A stretch of DNA of 64,000 nt from Thiohalomonas denitrificans (GTDB lineage: Bacteria > Pseudomonadota > Gammaproteobacteria > Thiohalomonadales > Thiohalomonadaceae): positions 1 through 64,000 of the forward strand of contig DYFR01000010.1 of assembly GCA_020725115.1 (NCBI GenBank). The letters run 5' to 3'. This document shows, one piece after another, positions 7,019 to 24,292 of this stretch (its first letter is position 1; every line of letters begins with the position of its first letter). The translations under genes were made by a program, and so were the position numbers. Below the pieces are notes generated by a model. The model searched no databases, was not told the origin of the DNA, and worked only from the letters and a program-made list of their open reading frames with translations.

Positions 7019-7110
7019 CCGTCCACAGCGGCTGCACGCTATTTGATCTCTATCAAGGCATAAAACACACATCATGCCCATATTTGCCACAGGAACTTTA
7101 CTGTGGACGG
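7019..7110. promoter_or_regulatory. 10-bp perfect inverted repeat bracketing the FNR promoter
   Basis: CCGTCCACAG (7019-7028) and its exact reverse complement CTGTGGACGG (7101-7110) flank the FNR box and predicted promoter of the sigma-54 activator. Relative to a start near 7091 the arms lie at about -68 and +15, one on each side of the promoter. This suits an operator pair bound by one protein, perhaps with looping. The binding protein is unknown; autoregulation by the activator is a guess. Confidence 0.5.
7043..7056 (+). promoter_or_regulatory. FNR/ANR-type box upstream of the sigma-54 activator gene
   Basis: TTGAT-CTCT-ATCAA matches all ten specified bases of the FNR consensus TTGAT-N4-ATCAA. 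Its centre (7049.5) would place a class II (-41.5) start near 7091, with TATTTG (7081-7086) as a poor -10 element. It indicates anaerobic induction of the gene at 7197. ANR, DNR or NnrR-type regulators bind similar sites. Confidence 0.8.
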
Positions 7111-7196
7111 GTTCGGGCGTTATCCTTCGCCCATGCTCAATGGCCGCCTGAAGGCGCCGGACACCAGCAATAATCGACGGGACAGGAGCAGCAACC

Positions 7197-8156
7197 ATGC
7201 CGCGCATGAACGCATTCGACCAACTGCTGACCGGGCAATCTCCCGAGTTTTGTGCCCTGATCCGCTCCGCCCAGGTGGTTGCAGCCACCAACGTCACAGC
7301 CCTGTTACTGGGTGAAAGCGGCACGGGGAAGGAGTTGTTCGCGACAGCCATCCATCAGGAAAGCCGCCGTGACCACGGCCCCTTCGTCGCCATCAACTGC
7401 GCTGCCCTGCCCGAGGGACTGGCAGAGTCCGAGCTGTTTGGACATCGCAAGGGGGCCTTCACCGGTGCTGTTCGGGAACATCCGGGACGCATCCGCTCCG
7501 CCCATGGCGGCACCCTGTTTCTCGACGAAATTGGGGAATTGCCGCTTGCCGTACAGGCCAAGCTGCTGCGCTTCCTTGAATCCAGCGAACTGCAGTCCGT
7601 AGGGGATACCGAGGTCGAACGCGTCGATGTGCGCGTCATCGCCGCCACTCATCACGACCTGCACCAGCGGGTAAAACAAGGTCTGTTCCGCGCCGACCTT
7701 TATTACCGTCTCAACGTGGTGCCACTGGAACTGCCGTCGCTACGCTCACGTTCAGGCGATATCCGCCTGCTGCTGGATACCCTCACCGCGCGTATTGCCA
7801 CACAGCATGGTCTCCAGATACCGCACTATCGTCCACGTGCACTGAAAGCGCTGGAGCAGTACCGCTGGCCCGGCAACATCCGCGAACTACGCAACTTTGC
7901 TGAGCGTATGGTGGTGCTGTTCCCAGGTGGCGAGATCGATTTCGAGAATCTGCCGCACGAAATCCGTATCCCGCAGATCGACGAACCGACACTGTTCACG
8001 CTACCCGATGGCGGTATCCGGCTGGAGGATCTGGAACAACAGATGATCCGCCAGGCCCTGTACAAGACGCGTGGCAACCGCAGCCATGCCGCCCGCCTGC
8101 TTGGTCTGACCCGCGACACCCTGCTCTACCGCTTGAAGAAATACGCTATTGATTAA
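7197..8156 (+). CDS. Stand-alone sigma-54-dependent transcriptional activator (PspF-like layout)
   Basis: A 319-aa activator with only an AAA+ domain and a C-terminal Fis-type helix-turn-helix. Walker A is GESGTGKE (39-46), the sigma-54-contacting GAFTGA loop is intact (86-91), Walker B is TLFLDEIG (106-113), arginine-finger region FRADLYYRL (164-172), HTH about 285-316. There is no receiver, GAF or PAS domain, so activity may be set by its amount; a perfect FNR box lies upstream. It converges on the PCu(A)C-tonB-exbDB-receptor operon, and sigma-54 promoters lie in the divergent region at 12.6-13.2 kb. It is therefore the likely dedicated activator of that block (inference). An AGGAGCAACC ribosome site supports the ATG. 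Confidence 0.92.
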   Translation: MPRMNAFDQLLTGQSPEFCALIRSAQVVAATNVTALLLGESGTGKELFATAIHQESRRDHGPFVAINCAALPEGLAESELFGHRKGAFTGAVREHPGRIRSAHGGTLFLDEIGELPLAVQAKLLRFLESSELQSVGDTEVERVDVRVIAATHHDLHQRVKQGLFRADLYYRLNVVPLELPSLRSRSGDIRLLLDTLTARIATQHGLQIPHYRPRALKALEQYRWPGNIRELRNFAERMVVLFPGGEIDFENLPHEIRIPQIDEPTLFTLPDGGIRLEDLEQQMIRQALYKTRGNRSHAARLLGLTRDTLLYRLKKYAID

Positions 8157-8221: not shown

Positions 8222-8698
8222 TTAGTGGTTGTGATGCATCTTGCCATGATCCATGGGCGTGCCCATGCCACCACGTACTTCGAATGTTACCGGCAAACTG
8301 CTGCCGTCCTTGAACTTCAGGGTGATATCCACCTTCTCACCGGCCTTCAGCACACGCTTCGGCTTCATCAGCATCAGATGAAAATCGCCCGGCTTGAATT
8401 CGAGCTGGCCATGGGACGGAACCTCGATGGATCCCTGCCGCACCATCCTGGCCATGCCTCCCTCCATCACGGTACGATGCAACTGCACCTCTCCGGCAGC
8501 AGCACACTCTGCCCCCACCAGCACCAGCGGCTGGGTCGAGTGATTGTGCAACATCATGAAGGCGCCCAGCGCCGCTGCCGTTGGTGGTGCCTCACGCACC
8601 CAGGGATTTTCCACCATCGCCCCCATGCCGGCAGCTCCCGCCAGCGAAGCATAAAATCCCATCAGGACAACCGCCATCACTCGAAACATCTTCACCAT
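8222..8698 (-). CDS. PCu(A)C-type periplasmic copper chaperone
   Basis: A 158-aa secreted protein of the DUF461/PCuAC family with a signal peptide (cleavage near residue 23, SLAGAAG). Family members bind Cu(I) with two His and two Met ligands. Here H74, M85, H107 and M109/M111 (in FHLMLM) fit the H-M-X10-M-X21-H-X-M pattern. The tail is Met/His-rich. Known members pass copper to cytochrome oxidase Cu-A sites. Here it is the last gene of the receptor-exbB-exbD-tonB operon, 35 nt after tonB. ATG at 8698 was preferred to GTG at 8701 because AAGGAG lies 7 nt upstream. Confidence 0.9.
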   Translation of the reverse strand: MVKMFRVMAVVLMGFYASLAGAAGMGAMVENPWVREAPPTAAALGAFMMLHNHSTQPLVLVGAECAAAGEVQLHRTVMEGGMARMVRQGSIEVPSHGQLEFKPGDFHLMLMKPKRVLKAGEKVDITLKFKDGSSLPVTFEVRGGMGTPMDHGKMHHNH

Positions 8699-8732
8699 CA
8701 CCTTTCTCCTTAACGACGTAAAATCAAACCAC

Positions 8733-9371
8733 CTAGTTCAACTTGAATTCCATGCCAAAGCTCACCCGCAAGGGACTCGGCACATCGCGCGGCGGTAACG
8801 GCAGCGGTAATGCAGCATTGACGGCATCCACCGCCGCCTTGCGCAATACCTCATGGCCCTCTTCCACGGCGACGTCACTTATCTGACCATTCTCGTGCAG
8901 AAAGAATGATACCTGAATCACCCCCTGCAACCCGCGTCGGCGGGCGGCACGAGGGTAGAATTTTTGCTCTTCGATATGGGCCAGCAACTGGCCCAGATAA
9001 CTCCGGCGCGCCTGCTCCATCTGCTGCGGATCACCCGCTGTCTCTGCCGGTGCTGGCGCGGACTCGACCACAGGCTCGGGCTCGCGTGCCTGCACCGTTT
9101 CCACTGGTCGTGTTTTTTTAACCGGCTTCGGTTCCGGTGGACGCGGCTTGGGCGGTTCCGGCGGTTTCGGCTGTGGCTTCACCTCCGGCACGGGGGCCGG
9201 CGGCTGGGGTTTTGTTGCAACACGAAAGCTGAGCCGGGTTACTCCTGCCGGCTTTCGCGCCTTGCCGTCATCTGCACTGAGTGCGAAATTCCCGGGCCAG
9301 AACAGCATCAGATGCAGGCCCAGGGAAAGGACGATTGCCCCCGTCCAGATAGCCGTCTCGCGCAGAGTCAT
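8733..9371 (-). CDS. tonB: TonB-family energy transducer
   Basis: A 212-aa periplasm-spanning protein. One N-terminal membrane anchor (about 8-28) is followed by a Pro/Lys/Glu-rich linker (about 55-110) and the C-terminal TonB domain (about 125-212) with FYPRAARRRGLQGV. It carries proton-motive energy from ExbBD to outer-membrane receptors. The ATG overlaps the exbD stop by 4 nt (ATGA), implying translational coupling. Its place inside the receptor operon suggests it serves that receptor. Confidence 0.95.
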   Translation of the reverse strand: MTLRETAIWTGAIVLSLGLHLMLFWPGNFALSADDGKARKPAGVTRLSFRVATKPQPPAPVPEVKPQPKPPEPPKPRPPEPKPVKKTRPVETVQAREPEPVVESAPAPAETAGDPQQMEQARRSYLGQLLAHIEEQKFYPRAARRRGLQGVIQVSFFLHENGQISDVAVEEGHEVLRKAAVDAVNAALPLPLPPRDVPSPLRVSFGMEFKLN

Positions 9372-9766
9372 TGTTCTTCGGTAACAATGTCTACGCCTTC
9401 CGCCCCGGCCTTGCGCGCGGCATCCAGCACACCCACCGCCAGCCCCAGAGTGGCGGTACGATCACCACGAATACGAACCACCTTCTCGCTGTGTGTCGCA
9501 AGCTCGTTCTGCAGTCGCATCTCAAGCTCGGAGATATCAATAAAATGATCCCGCAGCAGAATGCGCCCCTGCGCATCCAGCACCACCTGCACATACTCGT
9601 TGTCGTCCGGCTCACCACTCTGCGCCACCGGCAGATCGACCTTGATGCTCTCCTCACGCACGAAATGCGAGGTCAGCATGAAGAACACCAGGAGCAGAAA
9701 GACAATATCAATCAGCGGCGTCAGATTGGGCACATGACTCAGGCGCCTGCGCCCCTCAAACTGCAT
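9368..9766 (-). CDS. exbD: Biopolymer transport protein ExbD
   Basis: A 132-aa inner-membrane protein with one transmembrane helix (about 14-36). It contains the conserved LTPLIDIVFLLLVFFML region; the aspartate of PLIDIVFLLL is the proton-translocating residue known in ExbD/TolR. The ATG at 9766 was chosen because the protein then begins directly at the usual charged N-terminus, 11 nt inside the exbB 3' end. Longer in-frame extensions read into exbB and look spurious. Confidence 0.95.
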   Translation of the reverse strand: MQFEGRRRLSHVPNLTPLIDIVFLLLVFFMLTSHFVREESIKVDLPVAQSGEPDDNEYVQVVLDAQGRILLRDHFIDISELEMRLQNELATHSEKVVRIRGDRTATLGLAVGVLDAARKAGAEGVDIVTEEQ

Positions 9767-10415
9767 GCACCACCCCCTCACGGTGATGCACCGGCTCAGC
9801 GGACTCCACGATAGCGCAATCCGGCAGCTGCTCCAGCACCAGCGAGGCGCAGCTGCGCATGGCCTGGGCACGACGGTCGGCCATCCCTTCCAGCACATGC
9901 AGCATCAGCAGGATAGGAATGGCCACCGCCAGACCGACACCGGTAGTCAGCATCGCCTCCCAGATACCACCCGCCAATGCCTGCGCATCGACCCGGCCAC
10001 CGGCCTGCTCGATCACCATAAAGGCCTTGATCATGCCGATGATGGTGCCGAACAGGCCGAGCAGCGGCGCGGTATTGCCCAGCACGCCAAGGGTGCGGAA
10101 GCCGCGCTCCATGCGCTGCAACTCTTCCGAGCCGATGCGCGAGGCTACCCGCCCAAGATCCTTCACCCCGGCGGCGCCAGCCTCCAGCATGCCGCGGACA
10201 ATGGCAGCCTCCGGCCCCCGCAACGGTTGCAGCAACACTTGCGCCTCGTTACGGCGCAGCGCCTGCGACAATCTCCCTTCGAAGTCGCGCGGAACACGCC
10301 CCAACAGGGCAAAACTTGTGAAGCGTTCGAGCAGCAGCGCCACCGCCAGTATGGAATAGGCCAGGAGCACCCATACCACTACCCCGCCCTTGGCCATCAC
10401 CTCTTCGATCGTCAT
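9756..10415 (-). CDS. exbB: Biopolymer transport protein ExbB (MotA/TolQ/ExbB family)
   Basis: A 219-aa inner-membrane protein with three predicted membrane segments (about 8-30, 118-142, 160-182). The family signature GLFGTIIGMIKAF and the third-helix motif ILLTTGVGLAVAIP-type sequence are visible. It forms the proton channel with ExbD that powers TonB. It lies 45 nt after the receptor gene and overlaps exbD by 11 nt. Confidence 0.95.
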   Translation of the reverse strand: MTIEEVMAKGGVVVWVLLAYSILAVALLLERFTSFALLGRVPRDFEGRLSQALRRNEAQVLLQPLRGPEAAIVRGMLEAGAAGVKDLGRVASRIGSEELQRMERGFRTLGVLGNTAPLLGLFGTIIGMIKAFMVIEQAGGRVDAQALAGGIWEAMLTTGVGLAVAIPILLMLHVLEGMADRRAQAMRSCASLVLEQLPDCAIVESAEPVHHREGVVHAV

Positions 10416-10459: not shown

Positions 10460-12622
10460 TTAATACTTTACCTCAAGTCCGGCCGTCCATACTCGTCCGG
10501 GATTGACGGTAATAGAAATATCCTCGGCATTGAATACACCGTCATAATTACCATCGGAGGAGCCTCGGGCAGTGGTGTAATACTGTTTGTCCAGGAGGTT
10601 ATCGATACGCCCGAAGAATGACCACACCACGCCGCCACGGCGCATGTCGTAGTTGACCAGCAGGTTGTAGACCTCATGGCCGGAAATCTTCACCAGATTG
10701 GTCTCATCTGCGTAGTAGGATGTAATGGCGCTTGCCTCACCACTGATACTCCAGCCCGGCGCCGGCCGGTGGGTCACGATCACGTTGAGGCGGTGGTCTG
10801 GAACACGGGGGATATTGTTACCGGCATTATCATAGACCGTACTACTCCAGACGGTACAGCGTCCTGCAACCACCGTCGAACACGTGCGCAAGTGGAAATT
10901 GTCATATCGAGTATAGATAGCATCCATGTACGTATAAGCCATATCCCATGACCAGCTACGGGCAGGATCGCTGCGCAACGACAGCTCCAGGCCACGATGA
11001 CGCATGTCGCCCACATTGTCGTAGATATTGTCCGTACCGGTAGTGTATTGACCTGCCGTGGCACGGATGTGATTGATGCGGTCCAACTGAAACACGGACA
11101 TATCCATATCCACTGGCGTCCCCGCCCAATCCATCTTGGCACGCAGACCAAGCTCCATATTCAGGGAGTGCTCGGGGCGAAGATCCGGATTGGCCAGTAC
11201 ACGGCTGGTAGGCGTATTGCTGCCGACGAACAGCTGATTGGCATCAGGCGCGCGGAAACCGGTCGACAGGTTGGCATAGTAGTCGAGATTTTCCCGTGCG
11301 GCATAATTCCCCCCCAGCCGCCAGGAGGCTACATCAAAGGCTTTGCTGCCATTTTTAGATGCACTGAGAAAATCTGAATAGCCAAGATCGATATGATCGA
11401 CGCGGCCATTCACAGTCAGCGTCAGCGGATCACTGAGGCGGAATTTCAACTCGCCATAAACAGCCTGAACCTTCTCTGCAGTACTGTTATAGCTGCTGTC
11501 ACTGCCTACTGCTGGCGAACCGAAGACCCCAGTGTTATCGACCACTGTCGTACGATTGTCGTACAGGTTATCGCGCATATCCAGCCCGGCCATCCAGGCT
11601 GCCCTCTCGCCACCGGAACGATATTCAGATTTCACCCCGCGCTGGGCCTGATCATAGTCATTGAAATAATTGTAATCGTCTGTTCCGCGTATCGGCGATG
11701 AAGAAAACCGCGTGTGATCGGCGAAAAAATATCCGTTAACCAGCAGGTTGCTGGTGGCATCGGTATCCCTGGCGTAGGTGAGATAGTATTTGCCCAAGCG
11801 CACGTTATACCTGTTGGCATAGTCGTTATAGGCTGGATCCTTGCTTTCGGGATCTGTTGCTGCGGCAGTTACACCTCGCACGGTTCCATGACTGTTCTTT
11901 AACCGGTGTGAATTCTCGAAACCGAAAGTCAGATCACTTTCGTCCGTCAGATAATACTGCAGCTTGCCATTGGCATAGTCGGCGCGATAGGCGGAGTCAT
12001 CGTGATAGCCGTCAGCCTCGCGGCGAGATATCTGGGCATGACCGTTGGATTTTTCACCGGCAAACCCGGCCCGCGCCAGCCCCTTCTTGTAGCCATAAGC
12101 ACCAGCCTCTGCGCCGAGACGATATCCTGCCTGCTTCGCGCCGCGCTTGGTGGTGATAATTACCGCGCCGGACAGGGCATCATCGCCGAACAGATAGGAG
12201 GCGCCGCCCTTGATGACCTTGATGGACTCGATATTATCCAGATCGATGTTGACGCGCCCGGTTCGCTCGAATACCGGCACACCGTCAATGACAATGGCCA
12301 CACCTGGCTTCTCACCCATATACACCTGGTTTTCTACACCACGGATGTGAATCTTGAGGGAGTCACCGCCCTGTACCTCAGTGGTTACACCAGGAACCGA
12401 TTGCAACAATTGCTGGATATTCTCCACATGAGAGGCATCCACCGCATCCCCGCCAATTACCCCGATACTGGACACTTCGTCTCGTTTCTGTTCAAAGCGA
12501 TCATCGATAGTGGTCGATTCCACATGAATTACACCAAGACTATCGGCCAACACATTGGATGACGCCAATACAGCACCACACAACATACCCGCCAAAGGAA
12601 CTGAGCTACAGACACGACTCAT
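10460..12622 (-). CDS. TonB-dependent outer-membrane receptor, substrate unknown
   Basis: A 720-aa receptor with a signal peptide ending near SNVLADS, a TonB-box-like LGVIHVEST, a plug domain (about 50-155; VPGVTTEVQGGDSLKIHIRG) and a 22-strand-type barrel ending in GLEVKY with a C-terminal aromatic residue. ATG at 12622 is preferred to GTG at 12631 because GGGGTG lies 6 nt upstream. It opens an operon with its own exbB-exbD-tonB and a copper chaperone. FNR and sigma-54 sites lie upstream. Copper or a metal chelate is a possible substrate by context only; nothing in the barrel identifies the ligand. Confidence 0.95.
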   Translation of the reverse strand: MSRVCSSVPLAGMLCGAVLASSNVLADSLGVIHVESTTIDDRFEQKRDEVSSIGVIGGDAVDASHVENIQQLLQSVPGVTTEVQGGDSLKIHIRGVENQVYMGEKPGVAIVIDGVPVFERTGRVNIDLDNIESIKVIKGGASYLFGDDALSGAVIITTKRGAKQAGYRLGAEAGAYGYKKGLARAGFAGEKSNGHAQISRREADGYHDDSAYRADYANGKLQYYLTDESDLTFGFENSHRLKNSHGTVRGVTAAATDPESKDPAYNDYANRYNVRLGKYYLTYARDTDATSNLLVNGYFFADHTRFSSSPIRGTDDYNYFNDYDQAQRGVKSEYRSGGERAAWMAGLDMRDNLYDNRTTVVDNTGVFGSPAVGSDSSYNSTAEKVQAVYGELKFRLSDPLTLTVNGRVDHIDLGYSDFLSASKNGSKAFDVASWRLGGNYAARENLDYYANLSTGFRAPDANQLFVGSNTPTSRVLANPDLRPEHSLNMELGLRAKMDWAGTPVDMDMSVFQLDRINHIRATAGQYTTGTDNIYDNVGDMRHRGLELSLRSDPARSWSWDMAYTYMDAIYTRYDNFHLRTCSTVVAGRCTVWSSTVYDNAGNNIPRVPDHRLNVIVTHRPAPGWSISGEASAITSYYADETNLVKISGHEVYNLLVNYDMRRGGVVWSFFGRIDNLLDKQYYTTARGSSDGNYDGVFNAEDISITVNPGRVWTAGLEVKY

Positions 12623-12721
12623 CACATTCACCCCATTAAGTTGTTGTTATCAACAGCCACAACCAGACATCAATCAACCAGACTGTGGCAACCAGTCTCG
12701 CGGCATTTGTGCATTGCGACA

Positions 12722-12735
12722 TTGATCACGATCAA
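12722..12735 (-). promoter_or_regulatory. FNR/ANR-type box on the receptor side
   Basis: TTGAT-CACG-ATCAA matches the FNR consensus at all ten specified bases. It lies 100 nt upstream of the receptor start codon. A class II start would fall near 12687, but I see no strong -10 there. It lies at +24 to +37 of the sigma-54 start predicted at 12759, so it could mark a second promoter or modulate the first. Confidence 0.8.
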
Positions 12736-12769
12736 CCGCTCCCCGCACACACAAGCAGGCCGTCACTGC

Positions 12770-12786
12770 TGCATGATCCATGCCCG
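12770..12786 (-). promoter_or_regulatory. Candidate sigma-54 promoter of the receptor operon
   Basis: On the minus strand, CGGGCATG-GATC-ATGCA has GG and GC exactly 12 nt apart, as required for sigma-54 (-24/-12). It matches most of TTGGCACG-N4-TTGCA. The predicted start is near 12759, leaving a 137-nt leader. It resembles the rightward promoter at 13028 over about 30 nt, which supports both. Confidence 0.6.
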
Positions 12787-12790
12787 GACA

Positions 12791-12803
12791 TAAGTTATTG
12801 ATA
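12791..12803 (-). promoter_or_regulatory. IHF-like site upstream of the leftward sigma-54 promoter
   Basis: On the minus strand TATCAA-TAAC-TTA matches the IHF consensus WATCAA-N4-TTR at every specified base. It covers -44 to -32 relative to the predicted start. IHF commonly bends DNA between activator sites and sigma-54 promoters, though usually somewhat further upstream. Confidence 0.45.
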
Positions 12804-12817
12804 CGACTGTGTCACCC

Positions 12818-12833
12818 ATGTTGAGTGCAACAT
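12818..12833. promoter_or_regulatory. Perfect spaced palindrome, possible activator site
   Basis: ATGTTG-AGTG-CAACAT is a perfect 6+6 inverted repeat with a 4-bp spacer. It is about 67 nt upstream of the leftward sigma-54 start and 229 nt upstream of the rightward one. The position suits an enhancer-type site for the AAA+ activator encoded at 7197 (inference). Confidence 0.4.
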
Positions 12834-12946
12834 TCAATGCGCCATAAGACGCATTCGACTACGCCAAATGCCGCAAATATTTATTTTTTGCCTGATGGCT
12901 TTACGTTTGAACACGCCGCCAGCACGCAATCATTGTCTGATACGGC

Positions 12947-12975
12947 ATTTCACACGCATATGTGTTATTTCACAC
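12947..12975 (+). promoter_or_regulatory. 9-bp direct repeat at 20-bp spacing, possible upstream activator sites
   Basis: ATTTCACAC occurs at 12947-12955 and again at 12967-12975. The 20-bp phase equals two helical turns, so bound proteins would sit on one face of the helix. The pair is 80-108 nt upstream of the predicted rightward sigma-54 start, the usual distance for activator sites. Confidence 0.45.
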
Positions 12976-13010
12976 ACGCTGAAGGAAGAAACAAATACCA
13001 ACACACCAGA

Positions 13011-13023
13011 ACTCAATTAGTTA
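13011..13023 (+). promoter_or_regulatory. IHF-like site upstream of the rightward sigma-54 promoter
   Basis: ACTCAA-TTAG-TTA differs from the IHF consensus at one specified position. It covers -44 to -32 of the predicted start, the same offset and orientation as the site on the opposite arm. Confidence 0.35.
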
Positions 13024-13027
13024 TATA

Positions 13028-13044
13028 TTGGCACGCGTTATGCT
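13028..13044 (+). promoter_or_regulatory. Sigma-54 promoter of the double-cubane operon
   Basis: TTGGCACG-CGTT-ATGCT matches the whole -24 element and keeps the essential GC of the -12 element at exact spacing (GG at 13030-13031, GC at 13042-13043). The predicted start is near 13055, 125 nt upstream of the first gene. Confidence 0.8.
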
Positions 13045-13082
13045 CACAGCAGCGAAACGTGTGCGCCAATAAAAATACTCGC

Positions 13083-13096
13083 TTGACCATGATCAA
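13083..13096 (+). promoter_or_regulatory. FNR/ANR-type box on the double-cubane side
   Basis: TTGAC-CATG-ATCAA matches nine of ten FNR consensus bases. TATCCT (13122-13127) fits a -10 element for a class II start near 13131-13134, 46-49 nt upstream of the first gene. A separate FNR-dependent promoter downstream of the sigma-54 promoter is therefore plausible. Confidence 0.6.
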
Positions 13097-13179
13097 CGAC
13101 GGAGCTTCCTGACCACTTCAGTATCCTGCATGACAAATACACATCGCATCAGCAACCAACCTGTTTTCTGGAATCACAC

Positions 13180-14151
13180 ATGAATCGAATCCATCATCTA
13201 CTGACAGCGCTTTTTCTATGCATCGCACAACCGGCACTTGCCGCCACATCGTTGTGGTGGTCAGAGACCATGCCCCATGCCGAGCACGGCACCTCGCGTC
13301 ACTCCCATGGCGGACCGGTGGAGATCAGGCGTGGGGTGTATTACAAGAATCTGTGGTTACGGATCGGCAATGGCCCGGCGGATGCACGCTATATGGATAG
13401 TGCCATTGCCGGAAAGCTCCTGTTGGTGGACGTAAAAGGAGAGGTGAAGGAATTTTCCGGCGGCAATGTGCATGGCTCCTACGGCGTGAATTTCGCCATG
13501 CCGGATGAGGGCTTTTACAATATCTATCTGGTAAACGAGTCGATCCGGGATGGGCTGCGGCAGATAAACGTAGCCAAGTCAGAGGTGCTGAAGCACAGCT
13601 GTCGCGAGGGCCACGATCATGTGAAGCCACTGATGGCACCGCGTCAGCTCGACACGATACCTCTGGAGATTGTGCGCGAACGTTTCCCGGCGGAAAATTT
13701 CCATACCCTGTTCGGCTACGGTGACACCATCACATTTCTTGTGTTGCGTCAGGGCGTGCCGCTCGCCGGCGCCGAAGTTACCCTGCACACGGGGCGCGGC
13801 TGGCGCAATACCGTGCATACCGATGCGGAGGGACGCGCCAGTTTCATGATGATTCGCGATTACTATCCGCCTTGGCACGAGTTTGAGCGCCGCCACCGTC
13901 AGGACTATGTGGTAAGTGCCGTGTACGCCTCTGATGCATCTGGCGAGACCGCCGCCGGCCGCTACACCGCGACACGTTATGTGTCCACGCTCAACGGCAG
14001 CTATTATCCGTCGGAGCGCGATTACCGTTCCTATGCCTACGGCCTGCTGCTGGGAACCTTCGCCCTTGCCTTCACCGGCATCGCCGTCTACCTGTACCGT
14101 CGCCGCCGCCAGCGCCGCTTCCACGAGGTTCGCTTCGATGAAAAGAATTAG
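13180..14151 (+). CDS. His-rich periplasmic protein with C-terminal membrane anchor, function unknown (DUF4198-like?)
   Basis: A 323-aa protein with a signal peptide (1-22, ending PALAATS), a periplasmic body, one transmembrane helix (about 284-305) and a basic cytoplasmic tail (YRRRRQRR). Possible metal ligands are clustered: HAEH and HSHGG near the mature N-terminus and HSCREGHDH in the middle. The segment around residues 180-240 (GYGDTITFLVLRQGVPLAGA, then TDAEGRASFMM) resembles the Ig-like fold of DUF4198/NikK-type proteins, but I would not assign a family firmly. First gene of the rightward operon; it overlaps the NapH-like gene by 14 nt. Confidence 0.85.
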   Translation: MNRIHHLLTALFLCIAQPALAATSLWWSETMPHAEHGTSRHSHGGPVEIRRGVYYKNLWLRIGNGPADARYMDSAIAGKLLLVDVKGEVKEFSGGNVHGSYGVNFAMPDEGFYNIYLVNESIRDGLRQINVAKSEVLKHSCREGHDHVKPLMAPRQLDTIPLEIVRERFPAENFHTLFGYGDTITFLVLRQGVPLAGAEVTLHTGRGWRNTVHTDAEGRASFMMIRDYYPPWHEFERRHRQDYVVSAVYASDASGETAAGRYTATRYVSTLNGSYYPSERDYRSYAYGLLLGTFALAFTGIAVYLYRRRRQRRFHEVRFDEKN

Positions 14152-15124
14152 AGACGCCGTCAACGGCGTCGACCTGCGGCGCTTTCGTTTCTGGTTGCAG
14201 CTGTTCTTCTTCGTGCTGCTGGTCTATGGCGGGTATATGGCAGTGAACCTCGGCCAGTATCTGCCGACCTTTGCCTGCGGTTTCAATGATGAGGGCCGGG
14301 GCGGCATCTGCTATCTGTTACCACTGCAGCATCAGCTGGCGATGTCCTGGGGCACGCTGTTCGGCTGGGCCGGCCTGATGGTCTTGCAGGGCTTCCTGTT
14401 CTTTGCCCTGTGGTTCTTCGTGCTGAACAAGGGCTGGTGCGGCTATGTCTGCCCCTTGGGTACCATCCAGGACTGGATCACCAGCCTGCGCACGCGCCTG
14501 GGTATCCGCTACTCGCGCTATACCGAAGGACAGTTTCGTCGCCTCAGCCTGATCAAGTATCTGCTGCTGGCCTTGATGATCCTGATTCCACTCGGGATTG
14601 GCGGCGCCCTGCTACCCCACGACATGGGCACACCGTTTTGCGACATCTGCCCCGGCCGCATGATCATCCCCATGTTTACCGGTGATTTTTCCCAGCTCAC
14701 CATCGATTTTTCCAGCAAGACAACCATGGTGATGACGGCTCTCGGCATGCTGGTCACCGGCCTGTTTCTGGCCGGTGCCTTCTTCAAGAAGCGTTTCTTT
14801 TGCTTCTTCTGCCCCATGAGTGCCCTTCACTACCTTCTCTCCAAGCCGGCCCTGCTCAAGCTTAAGAAGGATGGCGCCAAGTGCACCCGCTGTGGCGACT
14901 GCTACCGGGTGTGCGACATGGAGATACGTGAAATCGCCGACGAAGTGAAGGAGCCGCGCATCATGCAGGACGACTGTATCCTGTGTCTGAAGTGCGTGGC
15001 CCACTGCCCTGAACAGGGTGCCCTCAAGGCCACCTTCGCCGGCATCCCCATCTTCGAATCTACCGAACAGGGCTTCATCAAGCGCATGACCAAGGGACAT
15101 AAAGATGAACAACACCACGAGTGA
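14138..15124 (+). CDS. NapH/CcoG-like membrane polyferredoxin
   Basis: A 328-aa inner-membrane iron-sulfur protein with about four transmembrane helices and three CxxC(x)CP-type membrane motifs (CGYVCP 101-106, CDICP 168-172, CFFCP 222-226). Two C-terminal 4Fe-4S ferredoxin clusters follow (C249/252/255/259 and C280/283/286/290). NapH, NosR and CcoG relatives move electrons between quinols and soluble or periplasmic partners. The ATG at 14138 overlaps the previous gene by 14 nt, and the next start overlaps its end by 20 nt. The likely role is feeding low-potential electrons to the downstream activase and reductase (inference from context). Confidence 0.92.
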   Translation: MKRIRDAVNGVDLRRFRFWLQLFFFVLLVYGGYMAVNLGQYLPTFACGFNDEGRGGICYLLPLQHQLAMSWGTLFGWAGLMVLQGFLFFALWFFVLNKGWCGYVCPLGTIQDWITSLRTRLGIRYSRYTEGQFRRLSLIKYLLLALMILIPLGIGGALLPHDMGTPFCDICPGRMIIPMFTGDFSQLTIDFSSKTTMVMTALGMLVTGLFLAGAFFKKRFFCFFCPMSALHYLLSKPALLKLKKDGAKCTRCGDCYRVCDMEIREIADEVKEPRIMQDDCILCLKCVAHCPEQGALKATFAGIPIFESTEQGFIKRMTKGHKDEQHHE

Positions 15125-16385
15125 TGCCACCGCACCGGCCTACAACCGCAGCCGCCAGGCGCGCGAGGCGGAGACCCTGCTCGACCGCATCCAGGACGAC
15201 TTTCCCGACAACCCGCAGGCGATGCGCTATTTCTACGATCTGTTCCGCAACGTCTATTGCCAGGGCGAACCGGTCAAACACGAGGGCACGCTGGTCGGCA
15301 CCACCTGCATCCACGCGCCGGAAGAGCTGATCTACGCCTTCGGCGCCACGCCGGTACGACTGTGCAACGGTTCCTATCATTACGACCAGATCGGCGCCGA
15401 CTTCATGCCGGCCAAGTCCTGCCCCCTGGTCAAGGCCACCCTGGGCTCGCTGCATGCCAAGGCCGCTGTGCCCAACACCGCAGCCCTGGAGTTGATCGTC
15501 AATCCCACCACCTGCGATCAGAAGACCAAGGCAAGCGCAATGATCGAGGCCATGGGCTACAAGGTGCACGACCTGGAGCTGCCGCCGGCCAAGGAAAGCG
15601 AGGAGGCGCGGCTGTACTGGCAGCGTTCTGTGCGACGCCTGGCCTTGCGCCTGCGCGAGTTGACCGGGCGCAAACTCACCCGCAGCAATCTGAAGACGGC
15701 CATGGCCCGCACCGCCCGCGCCCAAACCGCCTTCCGCACCCTGCATCAGCTGCGCAAGAGCGCACCCGCATTGTTCCTCGGCAAAGATGCCTTTCTGGTG
15801 ACCAATGCCTATTTCTTCGACGACCTCGACCGCTGGACTGCGGCCGTGGAGCAGCTTAATACCGAACTGCAACTACGACAGATGGAAGGTTTCCAAGCGG
15901 CACAGAAACGCGCCCCGCGCATCCTGTTCACCGGCTCGCCGCCCATCTTCCCCAATCTCAAGCTGCCGCTGCTCATCGAGGAGGCCGGCGGCGTTGTGGT
16001 GGCCGATGAAACCTGTTCCGCCAACCGCATGCTGTACGACATGACGGCGGTGGACGAATGGCTGCTCAACGACATGGTGGACGGTCTGGCCGATCGCTAT
16101 CTCAAGCCCTGTACCTGTCCCATATTCACCCGCAACGACGATCGTCAGCGCCGTCTGCTGCAACTGGCGGCGGACTTCAACGTGGACGGTGTGGTCTATC
16201 AGGCCTTCGCAGGCTGTCAGGTGTATGAGATGGAGTACCGCAGCATCGCCGATGTGCTGGCCGCGCAGGGGATACCCATGCTGTACGTGGAAACCGATTA
16301 CAGTCCCGACGACATGGGACAGTTGTCCACCCGAATCGAGGCCTTCCTTGAATCGATCAAGACCCGCAAGAGGAACAAGCAATGA
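15105..16385 (+). CDS. Double-cubane-cluster anaerobic reductase (BcrC/HgdB/YjiM family)
   Basis: A 426-aa protein of the 2-hydroxyacyl-CoA dehydratase/benzoyl-CoA reductase component family. Its encoding as a single subunit next to one activase, like E. coli YjiM/YjiL, points to the homodimeric double-cubane-cluster proteins rather than the two-subunit dehydratases. Candidate cluster cysteines are C68 (TTCIHAPEE), C87, C106 (AKSCPLVK), C137 (NPTTCDQK), C304, C336/C338 (KPCTCP) and C371 (FAGCQVYE). Characterised members reduce small molecules such as acetylene, azide or hydrazine when the activase supplies ATP-driven electrons; the natural substrate is not known. No CoA-ester pathway genes are near. 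AAGGGA supports the ATG at 15105. Confidence 0.9.
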   Translation: MNNTTSDATAPAYNRSRQAREAETLLDRIQDDFPDNPQAMRYFYDLFRNVYCQGEPVKHEGTLVGTTCIHAPEELIYAFGATPVRLCNGSYHYDQIGADFMPAKSCPLVKATLGSLHAKAAVPNTAALELIVNPTTCDQKTKASAMIEAMGYKVHDLELPPAKESEEARLYWQRSVRRLALRLRELTGRKLTRSNLKTAMARTARAQTAFRTLHQLRKSAPALFLGKDAFLVTNAYFFDDLDRWTAAVEQLNTELQLRQMEGFQAAQKRAPRILFTGSPPIFPNLKLPLLIEEAGGVVVADETCSANRMLYDMTAVDEWLLNDMVDGLADRYLKPCTCPIFTRNDDRQRRLLQLAADFNVDGVVYQAFAGCQVYEMEYRSIADVLAAQGIPMLYVETDYSPDDMGQLSTRIEAFLESIKTRKRNKQ

Positions 16386-17179
16386 ATTATTTTGCCGGTA
16401 TCGACATCGGCTCCACCGCCATCAAGGCTGCCGTGGTCGATCAGGACGGGAAATTGATCGGCACCCGCATCACCCCCACCGGCAGCATGTTCCACAAGAA
16501 CGCCATGGAAGCCTTCGAAACGCTGCTGGCACAACACGGCATTGCCCGCGAGGCGGTGAAGTTCGTTACCGCCACCGGCTACGGTCGCAAGCTGTTCAAG
16601 GAGGCGGACGATTCCATCAGCGAGATCACCGCCAACGCCATCGGCGCCTGCGAGGCGGGACGTGCCTTCGGCGGTGTGCGCACCATCATCAACATCGGCG
16701 GCCAGGACTCCAAGGCGATCCAGATCGACGTCAACGGCAACGTCTGCAACTTCGCCATGAACGACAAATGTGCCGCCGGTACCGGACGTTTCCTCGATGT
16801 GGCAGCGCGCAACCTGGAGATCGATCTGGAAGAACTGGGCGAGTATCACTTTGGCGGCAGCGGCGCGCCCCTTACCATCAACAGCACCTGCGCGGTATTC
16901 GCCGAATCGGAGATCATCGGCCTGCTGGCCAAGGGGCATGGCAAGCAAGAGATTGTCGCCGGCATTCACTATTCCATCGCCCGCCGCACCGTGCGTCTGG
17001 CCAAGCGCGTCGGCATCGAGGATCGCGTCTATTTCGACGGCGGCCCGGCACTCAACAAGGGGCTGGTGGCGGCATTGCAGGACGAGCTGGGCCGCGAACT
17101 TGTGATTCCCGAGCAGCCGCAAACCACCACTGCCTTCGGTGCCGCGGTACTGGCACGCAGCCAGTATCTGGCGGAGTAA
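16382..17179 (+). CDS. ATP-dependent activase/reductase of the double-cubane protein (BadF/BadG/BcrA/BcrD family, YjiL-like)
   Basis: A 265-aa ASKHA-fold ATPase. The phosphate-binding start GIDIGSTAIKAAV (6-18) and GGQDSK (106-111) are clear. The two cysteines that bridge one 4Fe-4S cluster between subunits are C130 (NDKCAAGTGRF) and C170 (NSTCAVFAESE). Family members couple ATP hydrolysis to very low-potential electron transfer into a partner reductase. The start overlaps the partner's stop by 4 nt, the usual sign of a fixed pair. Electron donor is probably a ferredoxin or the NapH-like protein two genes upstream (inference). Confidence 0.95.
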   Translation: MNYFAGIDIGSTAIKAAVVDQDGKLIGTRITPTGSMFHKNAMEAFETLLAQHGIAREAVKFVTATGYGRKLFKEADDSISEITANAIGACEAGRAFGGVRTIINIGGQDSKAIQIDVNGNVCNFAMNDKCAAGTGRFLDVAARNLEIDLEELGEYHFGGSGAPLTINSTCAVFAESEIIGLLAKGHGKQEIVAGIHYSIARRTVRLAKRVGIEDRVYFDGGPALNKGLVAALQDELGRELVIPEQPQTTTAFGAAVLARSQYLAE

Positions 17180-17181
17180 CG

Positions 17182-17868
17182 ATGGAGCCCATCGAACAGA
17201 CTCTGGTCACGTTGCCGCTGGCGCTGGCGCTCGGTCTGGTGTTCGGTTTCAGCGCCTGCACCATCAGCTGCCTGCCCTATCTCGGGCCGGTGTTTCTGGC
17301 CAGCGAGGGCGGTATCCGCCAGTCCTGGCGCACCGTGCTGCCATTTTCTCTCGGCCGCCTGTCCAGCTATGCCGGGCTGGGACTCGTAGCGGGCATCGCA
17401 GGTCAGTACATCGGCAATGGCGTAGGCGCCAGTCCGGTACGCTGGGTGCTGGGCTGTGCCGCCATCATGGTCGGCATTGCCCTGTTGCTGCGCCAGACAT
17501 CCGGCAAGAGTTGCACTGCCCCGGTGCCCGCGGAACAACCGCTGCGCCATATCGCGCGCACCGATGCACCGCAAACACTCATGCCCGGAGGTCTGTTCCT
17601 GATGGGGGCCGGTATGGCCCTGACACCCTGCGCTCCCCTTGGCACGGTGCTGTTCTCCGCCGCCACCACCGCCAGCGCCAGTCATGGCCTCGCCCTCGGT
17701 CTCTCCTTCGGCCTCGGTGCCATCGCCCTGCCTGCCCTGGTCTTTGGTGTCGGCGTGGCCTACATCGGCAGTCGACTGCGCGAACAATTGCGTCACTGGC
17801 GCCATGGCGTGCAGCGTCTCAGCGCCGTGCTGCTCATCGTCGTCGGCGGCGTGAATCTGCTGGGCTGA
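17182..17868 (+). CDS. CcdA/DsbD-like (SafE-type) integral membrane protein
   Basis: A 228-aa protein with about six transmembrane helices in two similar halves. Each half begins with a Cys/Pro motif: FSACTISCLPYLGP (C26, C30) and LTPCAPLGT (C150). This resembles CcdA/DsbD cores, where such cysteines pass thiol electrons across the membrane, and SafE-like proteins found near copper-oxidase assembly genes. It begins 2 nt after the activase stop and closes the operon, before a terminator. A role in reducing thiols or metal on the periplasmic anchored protein is possible but unproven. Confidence 0.82.
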   Translation: MEPIEQTLVTLPLALALGLVFGFSACTISCLPYLGPVFLASEGGIRQSWRTVLPFSLGRLSSYAGLGLVAGIAGQYIGNGVGASPVRWVLGCAAIMVGIALLLRQTSGKSCTAPVPAEQPLRHIARTDAPQTLMPGGLFLMGAGMALTPCAPLGTVLFSAATTASASHGLALGLSFGLGAIALPALVFGVGVAYIGSRLREQLRHWRHGVQRLSAVLLIVVGGVNLLG

Positions 17869-24188: not shown

Positions 24189-24292
24189 TCAAACTTCTTT
24201 AGCGCCGGCCTACCAGCACCACCGGCTGGTACACCTAATGTGGGGCGCCGCGGTTTCCGTCTTCGGTTCTATACTCGAAACTATTTGTTGAC

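Follow-up and report, generated by a model that had tools for sequence, protein, structure and literature searches.

The 548-bp gap between two divergent operons in the window (the whole 64-kb stretch that was analysed, part of a 2.9-Mb gammaproteobacterial draft genome) probably constitutes a mirror-symmetric control region in which two stacked promoters on each arm take part in a coherent feed-forward loop. The sequence directly shows the sites with their spacing and conservation, and the surrounding genes; from it we infer the occupancy of the sites, the palindrome-binding activator, the start sites, the direction of regulation, and copper or another metal as the theme. In the proposed mechanism, higher-order oligomers of the activator encoded at 7197-8156 would occupy both palindrome pairs (12838/12860 and 12941/12961). 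IHF would bend the DNA from a site immediately upstream of every core, and the activator would open sigma-54 polymerase at 12759 (leftward) and 13055 (rightward). An FNR-type protein at 12722-12735 and 13083-13096 would activate sigma-70 promoters starting near 12687 and 13131. FNR would also control the activator gene, and low oxygen would raise the activator. With FNR boxes at both the activator gene and the operons, low oxygen would act directly and through the activator, which is what makes the predicted loop coherent and feed-forward.

Two divergent operons and a sensorless activator

The cassette lies between tig and folD and is also flanked by tRNA genes. The activator gene, the TonB operon, and the reductase operon are syntenic between tig and folD in four genomes. 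Of the genus's four other genomes, G014, G016, and G017 carry the cassette at the same place; G015 (84% complete) has neither a DUF4198 gene nor a close activator relative. The left-arm operon reads leftward on the minus strand and encodes, in order, a TonB-dependent receptor (10460-12631; PF00593, PF07715), ExbB, ExbD, and TonB (together 8733-10415; PF01618, PF02472, and PF03544), and a PCu(A)C copper chaperone (8222-8701; PF04314). The right-arm operon reads rightward on the plus strand and starts with an exported DUF4198-like protein that has a membrane segment at its C-terminus (13180-14151; a weak PF10670 match below the cut-off), relatives of which are present across the family. It continues with a NapH-like membrane 4Fe-4S protein (14138-15124), a double-cubane-cluster reductase and its adjoining activase (15105-17179, with the reductase at 15105-16385 and the activase at 16382-17179), and a DsbD_2/TauE-like membrane protein (17182-17868; PF13386). 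The reductase scored 358.4 bits with NF040772 (cut-off 350) and the activase 245.8 bits with TIGR00241 (cut-off 125.4). The window receptor gave no match to the TonB-dependent copper receptor model TIGR01778. The two operons probably serve the import of a metal such as copper and an oxygen-sensitive enzyme, respectively. Operons of the DUF4198-NapH-reductase-activase type, usually with DsbD_2, were also observed across the family, in methanotroph and in other gammaproteobacterial MAGs (L028, L029, L030, L031, L033, L007, L008, L009, and L011); no activator relative was found within the stretches taken around them.

The gene at 7197-8156 (plus strand) encodes a stand-alone sigma-54 enhancer-binding protein of 319 aa (PF00158, PF25601, PF02954), an AAA+ protein with Walker A and GAFTGA motifs and a Fis-type HTH. 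No sensor domain was found in it, and there is no space for one after the in-frame stop at 7149; the level of the activator, or another partner, may therefore set its activity. Assignment as NifA was rejected, as the protein scored 333 bits with the nifA model (cut-off 529) and has no N-terminal GAF sensor. About 11 other sigma-54 activators are encoded in the genome; gene neighbourhood points to the 7197-8156 protein, and not another, as the one that would bind the palindromes. Relatives with 53-68% identity were found in 44 genomes outside the genus among 369 gammaproteobacterial genomes searched, and they adjoin DsbD_2 genes at several inspected loci and a heavy-metal P-type ATPase gene at one.

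Upstream of the activator gene, a perfect FNR box (TTGATCTCTATCAA, 7043-7056, plus strand) precedes a likely sigma-70 promoter at 7097-7126 on the same strand (-35 TTTACT at 7097-7102, -10 TATCCT at 7121-7126). The promoter motifs TTTACY and TATYCT are kept in all four genomes, and the box is kept with one mismatch in G014, G016, and G017. The box is centred about -83.5 from the predicted sigma-70 start, and a second, weaker -10-like element (CATATT) stands at class II distance from it. Neither this gene nor its FNR box had been mentioned in the original prediction, and the same is true of the enhancer pairs and of the -10 elements described below.

Sigma-54 cores, IHF-type sites and enhancer pairs

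The left sigma-54 -24/-12 core (CGGGCATGGATCATGCA, 12786-12770, minus strand) and the right core (TTGGCACGCGTTATGCT, 13028-13044, plus strand) give predicted starts at 12759 and 13055. Both contain GG-N10-GC and conform to the -24/-12 consensus, the left in four of four genomes and the right in three of four. With sigma-54 and -10 matrices that are approximations from general knowledge, the right core ranked best in the 64-kb window and the left about fifth. Between enhancer and core, at -44 to -32 and in the same orientation on both arms, stands a match to the IHF consensus WATCAANNNNTTR, perfect on the left (TATCAATAACTTA, 12791-12803, minus strand) and with one mismatch on the right (ACTCAATTAGTTA, 13011-13023, plus strand). 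The genome has rpoN and HU/IHF-family genes. The original prediction had named these cores, IHF-type sites, and starts together with an FNR-type box 24-42 nt downstream of each start, and all of them are present where it placed them; the TCAAT, TTAT, GGCA, and ATGC blocks that it described indeed recur in both arms with the same spacing. Over the 20 nt that precede the cores, the arms agree at 11 of 20 positions (P ~0.0009 for random placement); the corresponding counts are 13 of 20 in G016 and only 6 of 20 in G014.

Conservation argues for the same arrangement. The intergenic DNA of the genus genomes is otherwise heavily changed and poorly alignable, but all four aligned regions retain the left core, IHF-type site, and FNR box; on the right, G000, G014, and G016 retain the core and the IHF-type site. 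The right core of G017 has degraded or moved, and a weaker candidate takes its place about 28 bp farther away from the enhancers. Because the left sites are kept in all and the right sites mostly, amid DNA that aligns poorly, the mirror pattern is well beyond chance.

Each arm also carries a pair of 16-bp palindromes of the TGT-N10-ACA type (consensus about TGYGKCAWWTGMCRCA). The left pair consists of a proximal enhancer at 12838-12853 (centre -86.5) and a distal one at 12860-12875 (centre -108.5), and the right pair of a distal enhancer at 12941-12956 (centre -106.5) and a proximal one at 12961-12976 (centre -86.5). A leave-one-out matrix, to which only the other three genomes contributed, ranked 12961, 12941, 12860, and 12838, in that order, above every other position of the 64-kb window. 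These regions are also where the palindrome consensus was first noticed, a circularity which the leave-one-out and held-out tests lessen and do not remove. Two pairs, with sites 20-22 bp apart, occur in every cassette-bearing member of the genus, and of the eight pairs, seven are placed at about -87/-107 relative to a predicted start. The eighth, the right pair of G017, faces the displaced weak core, and some of the individual sites of G016 and G017 match weakly. Thus paired palindromes at about -107/-86, as expected of enhancers of a sigma-54 promoter, are found on both arms, and the mirror symmetry is deeper than first noticed, because each arm is a complete enhancer-enhancer-IHF-core module. 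Single enhancer matches with two mismatches were not specific genome-wide (124 against 81 for the control).

The module was then scored as two enhancers plus a core at fixed spacing, with reversed sequences as the null. The two window promoters reached 51.7 and 46.0 against a null maximum of 13.3, and seven loci held out of the matrix (other genera and a second G016 locus) scored 31-41 at the same spacing. Three of these matches lie upstream of DUF4198-reductase operons (G009, G018, and G019) and two are in G007, one at a receptor-DUF4198-reductase operon and the other at an ExbB-ExbD-TonB-PCuAC operon that adjoins an activator relative and tig. The remaining two are the second receptor-DUF4198 locus of G016 and a site in G103 without an obvious gene. 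Relaxed spacing added three loci with scores of 41-48 (null maximum 14.6), two of them upstream of TonB receptors that neighbour activator relatives (G109 and G141) and one upstream of a DUF4198 operon from a methanotroph. The IHF consensus, with at most two mismatches, was found at -43 to -45 in 12 of 17 module promoters, compared with a null rate of 0.0016 per position.

The chance gathering of consensus matches is, on these grounds, highly improbable. It would agree with the strict sigma-54 consensus being barely commoner genome-wide than its control (seven matches against five, an uninformative count), but the conservation, leave-one-out, cross-genus composite, and IHF results contradict it. 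Judged from conservation, the divergent, mirror-symmetric predicted sigma-54 promoters with IHF-type sites are strongly supported, which upholds this part of the original prediction.

Some of these loci, and others, showed further features. The second receptor-DUF4198-NapH copy of G016 (L032, 4356-8794) lies under an enhancer-enhancer-IHF-sigma-54 module, and tblastn of the 14-kb stretch around it gave no reductase or activase match. At L090 (7538-7660), one of the seven held-out loci, a full enhancer-pair/sigma-54 element (score 36.0) adjoins an activator relative; no protein-coding gene was found downstream, where a small RNA or small protein is possible. At L092 (9242-9337), a very strong sigma-54 core (18.0), without clear enhancer pairs, lies just downstream of an activator relative and 94 nt before a NapC/NirT-type cytochrome gene. 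A genome-wide search for enhancer-pair patterns gave one convincing match beyond the window, on contig 32 of the same genome (L102, ~24231-24262; L113, 7159-7362), where an enhancer pair and a sigma-54 core with a composite score of 42.1 are flanked on one side by a probable TonB-dependent receptor and on the other by the divergently oriented gene of another sigma-54 activator (441 aa). Because this neighbouring activator differs from the 7197-8156 protein and has an HTH of its own, the element was not assigned to the regulon of the latter.

FNR boxes and the predicted downstream promoters

Within the predicted sigma-54 leaders, the left FNR box (TTGATCACGATCAA, 12722-12735, minus strand) is perfect and spans +24 to +37 (centre +30.5), and the right box (TTGACCATGATCAA, 13083-13096, plus strand) has one mismatch and spans +28 to +41 (centre +34.5). 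The left box is kept in four of four genomes; the right box is kept in G000, G016, and G017 and gone in G014. Perfect FNR boxes number only 12 in the 2.9-Mb genome, and two of them are inside the cassette. FNR-activated promoters in E. coli most often have the box centred at -41.5 (PMC3688515), a class II geometry that corresponds to a gap of 22 nt between box and -10 element, and the gap was preset at this value. At 22 nt after the box there is a -10-like GAGACT on the left (12694-12699, minus strand; predicted sigma-70 start ~12687) and CAGTAT on the right (13119-13124, plus strand; predicted start ~13131). Across the seven FNR boxes of the structural operons, which, being drawn from four related genomes, are not wholly independent of one another, -10-like hexamers fitted best by mean score at a gap of 22 among 75 gaps (resampling P ~2e-5), and NAnnnT occurred at five of the seven sites at this gap (binomial P 6e-6). 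The hexamers are weak (3-4 of 6 positions), and the G014 left arm lacks one. They also differ among genomes (CAGTAT, CATCAT, GAGACT, GATAGT, and AAGAGT); being both weak and different, they argue against simple shared ancestry of one sequence. As a calibration, nirS and norC of the same genome have a perfect box 22-23 nt before a -10-like element.

The original prediction had left two roles for these boxes, separate class II promoters or roadblocks, and the -10 fit at 22 nt favours the former. If FNR bound at about +31 acted as a roadblock, it would stop or repress sigma-54 transcription in anoxia and switch the operons between modes. Such a role would account for the left box, which in four of four genomes is centred between +30.5 and +33.5 relative to the sigma-54 start while leader length varies, and for right boxes at +34.5 and +43.5 where the core is canonical. 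We consider it unlikely, however, since the -10 elements stand at exact class II spacing and the right boxes track the start codon (86-90 nt) and not the sigma-54 start (-4.5 to +43.5). In addition, the reductase family is annotated as anaerobic, so that anoxic repression makes little sense, and a conserved FNR box also precedes the activator gene. Most likely, the boxes form separate FNR-activated class II sigma-70 promoters about 72 nt downstream of the sigma-54 starts, as indicated by the -10 fit at the preset gap, the gap at nirS and norC, and the right boxes tracking the start codon. Interference between the stacked promoters is a possible consequence.

The boxes might instead be relics, with only the sigma-54 promoters at work. 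The absence of the right box in G014 would be in keeping with this, and so would the search in other genera, where no FNR boxes were found near these operons, making the boxes specific to the genus. This seems quite unlikely to us, because the left box and the activator-gene box are kept in four of four genomes while the neighbouring DNA has changed heavily. On the right arm neither layer is strictly required, given that G014 lacks the FNR box and the core of G017 is degraded or moved. As for the protein that reads the boxes, an NO-responsive DNR-type paralogue is a tentative possibility, which would tie the cassette to denitrification and not to oxygen itself. The genome encodes six Crp/FNR-family genes, one of them beside nirS, nirS and norC carry the same perfect box, and nosZ is present in the genus. 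However, the two proteins encoded beside nirS and beside a ccoN-like gene both have the four cysteines of the FNR type, and the box sequence does not discriminate between FNR and DNR.

Metal theme and relation to known systems

Copper is a reasonable, if tentative, theme of the regulon. It is reasonable because the G141 target (L094) exceeds the TIGR01778 cut-off (607.8 against 472) and the G109 target is a receptor followed by a PepSY_TM gene, as in CrtA/CrpH operons. In a broader and rather doubtful reading, the activator would belong to an undescribed sensorless family that controls the import of copper (or a copper complex) by a fixed enhancer-pair/IHF/sigma-54 module across gammaproteobacteria. 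Within the genus, each leader would have gained an FNR-sigma-70 promoter, which would set an anaerobic mode and a metal-starvation mode in competition on the same DNA and wire the double-cubane reductase into metal uptake.

The present analysis supplies a predicted activator, an enhancer sequence, and two predicted starts per operon for a double-cubane reductase family. The link of the regulon to TonB-dependent metal uptake makes the function of activator and enzyme directly testable, and with the tandem sigma-54/FNR layout on both arms one can ask, in a clean natural setting, how output is affected by a sigma-70 promoter that lies within a sigma-54 leader. The literature on sigma-54/FNR tandem promoters, and on double-cubane proteins with TonB or sigma-54, gave no match to the arrangement. 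The parts are of known kinds; the activator family, the enhancer pair, and the mirrored tandem were not found in the searchable literature.

The NifA enhancer consensus is TGT-N10-ACA, and the site at 12961-12976 and the sites of several relatives fit it. The activator described here, however, is without the sensor domain of NifA and falls well short of the cut-off score for that family. The arrangement also resembles E. coli norVW, where the NorR-controlled promoter combines a sigma-54 core, IHF, and multiple tandem enhancers (PMC4601167). NorR, however, has a GAF sensor and three enhancers, whereas here there is no sensor, two enhancers serve each promoter, and an FNR layer would be added. 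The downstream promoters are like FNR class II promoters in their TTGATN4ATCAA box and in a -10 element at the -41.5 geometry (PMC3688515), and differ from the usual ones in lying inside a predicted sigma-54 leader on both arms of a divergent region.

Some targets of the module (L091 and L094) look the same as the copper operons of the CrtA/CrpH and OprC types, in which TonB receptors occur with a PepSY_TM protein, ExbBD/TonB, and PCuAC (PMC12914433, PMC13038864). No sigma-54 activator was found in the passages searched, and the window receptor does not match the copper receptor family. Finally, in the fixR-nifA system of Bradyrhizobium, a single operon is driven from two promoters, each for a different polymerase holoenzyme, through which redox inputs are joined (PMC4064962). 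Each operon here would likewise be driven from promoters for two different holoenzymes that join redox inputs. The fixR-nifA system has one operon, overlapping promoters, and RegR, whereas the region described here has two divergent operons, promoters predicted to lie about 72 nt apart, and FNR.
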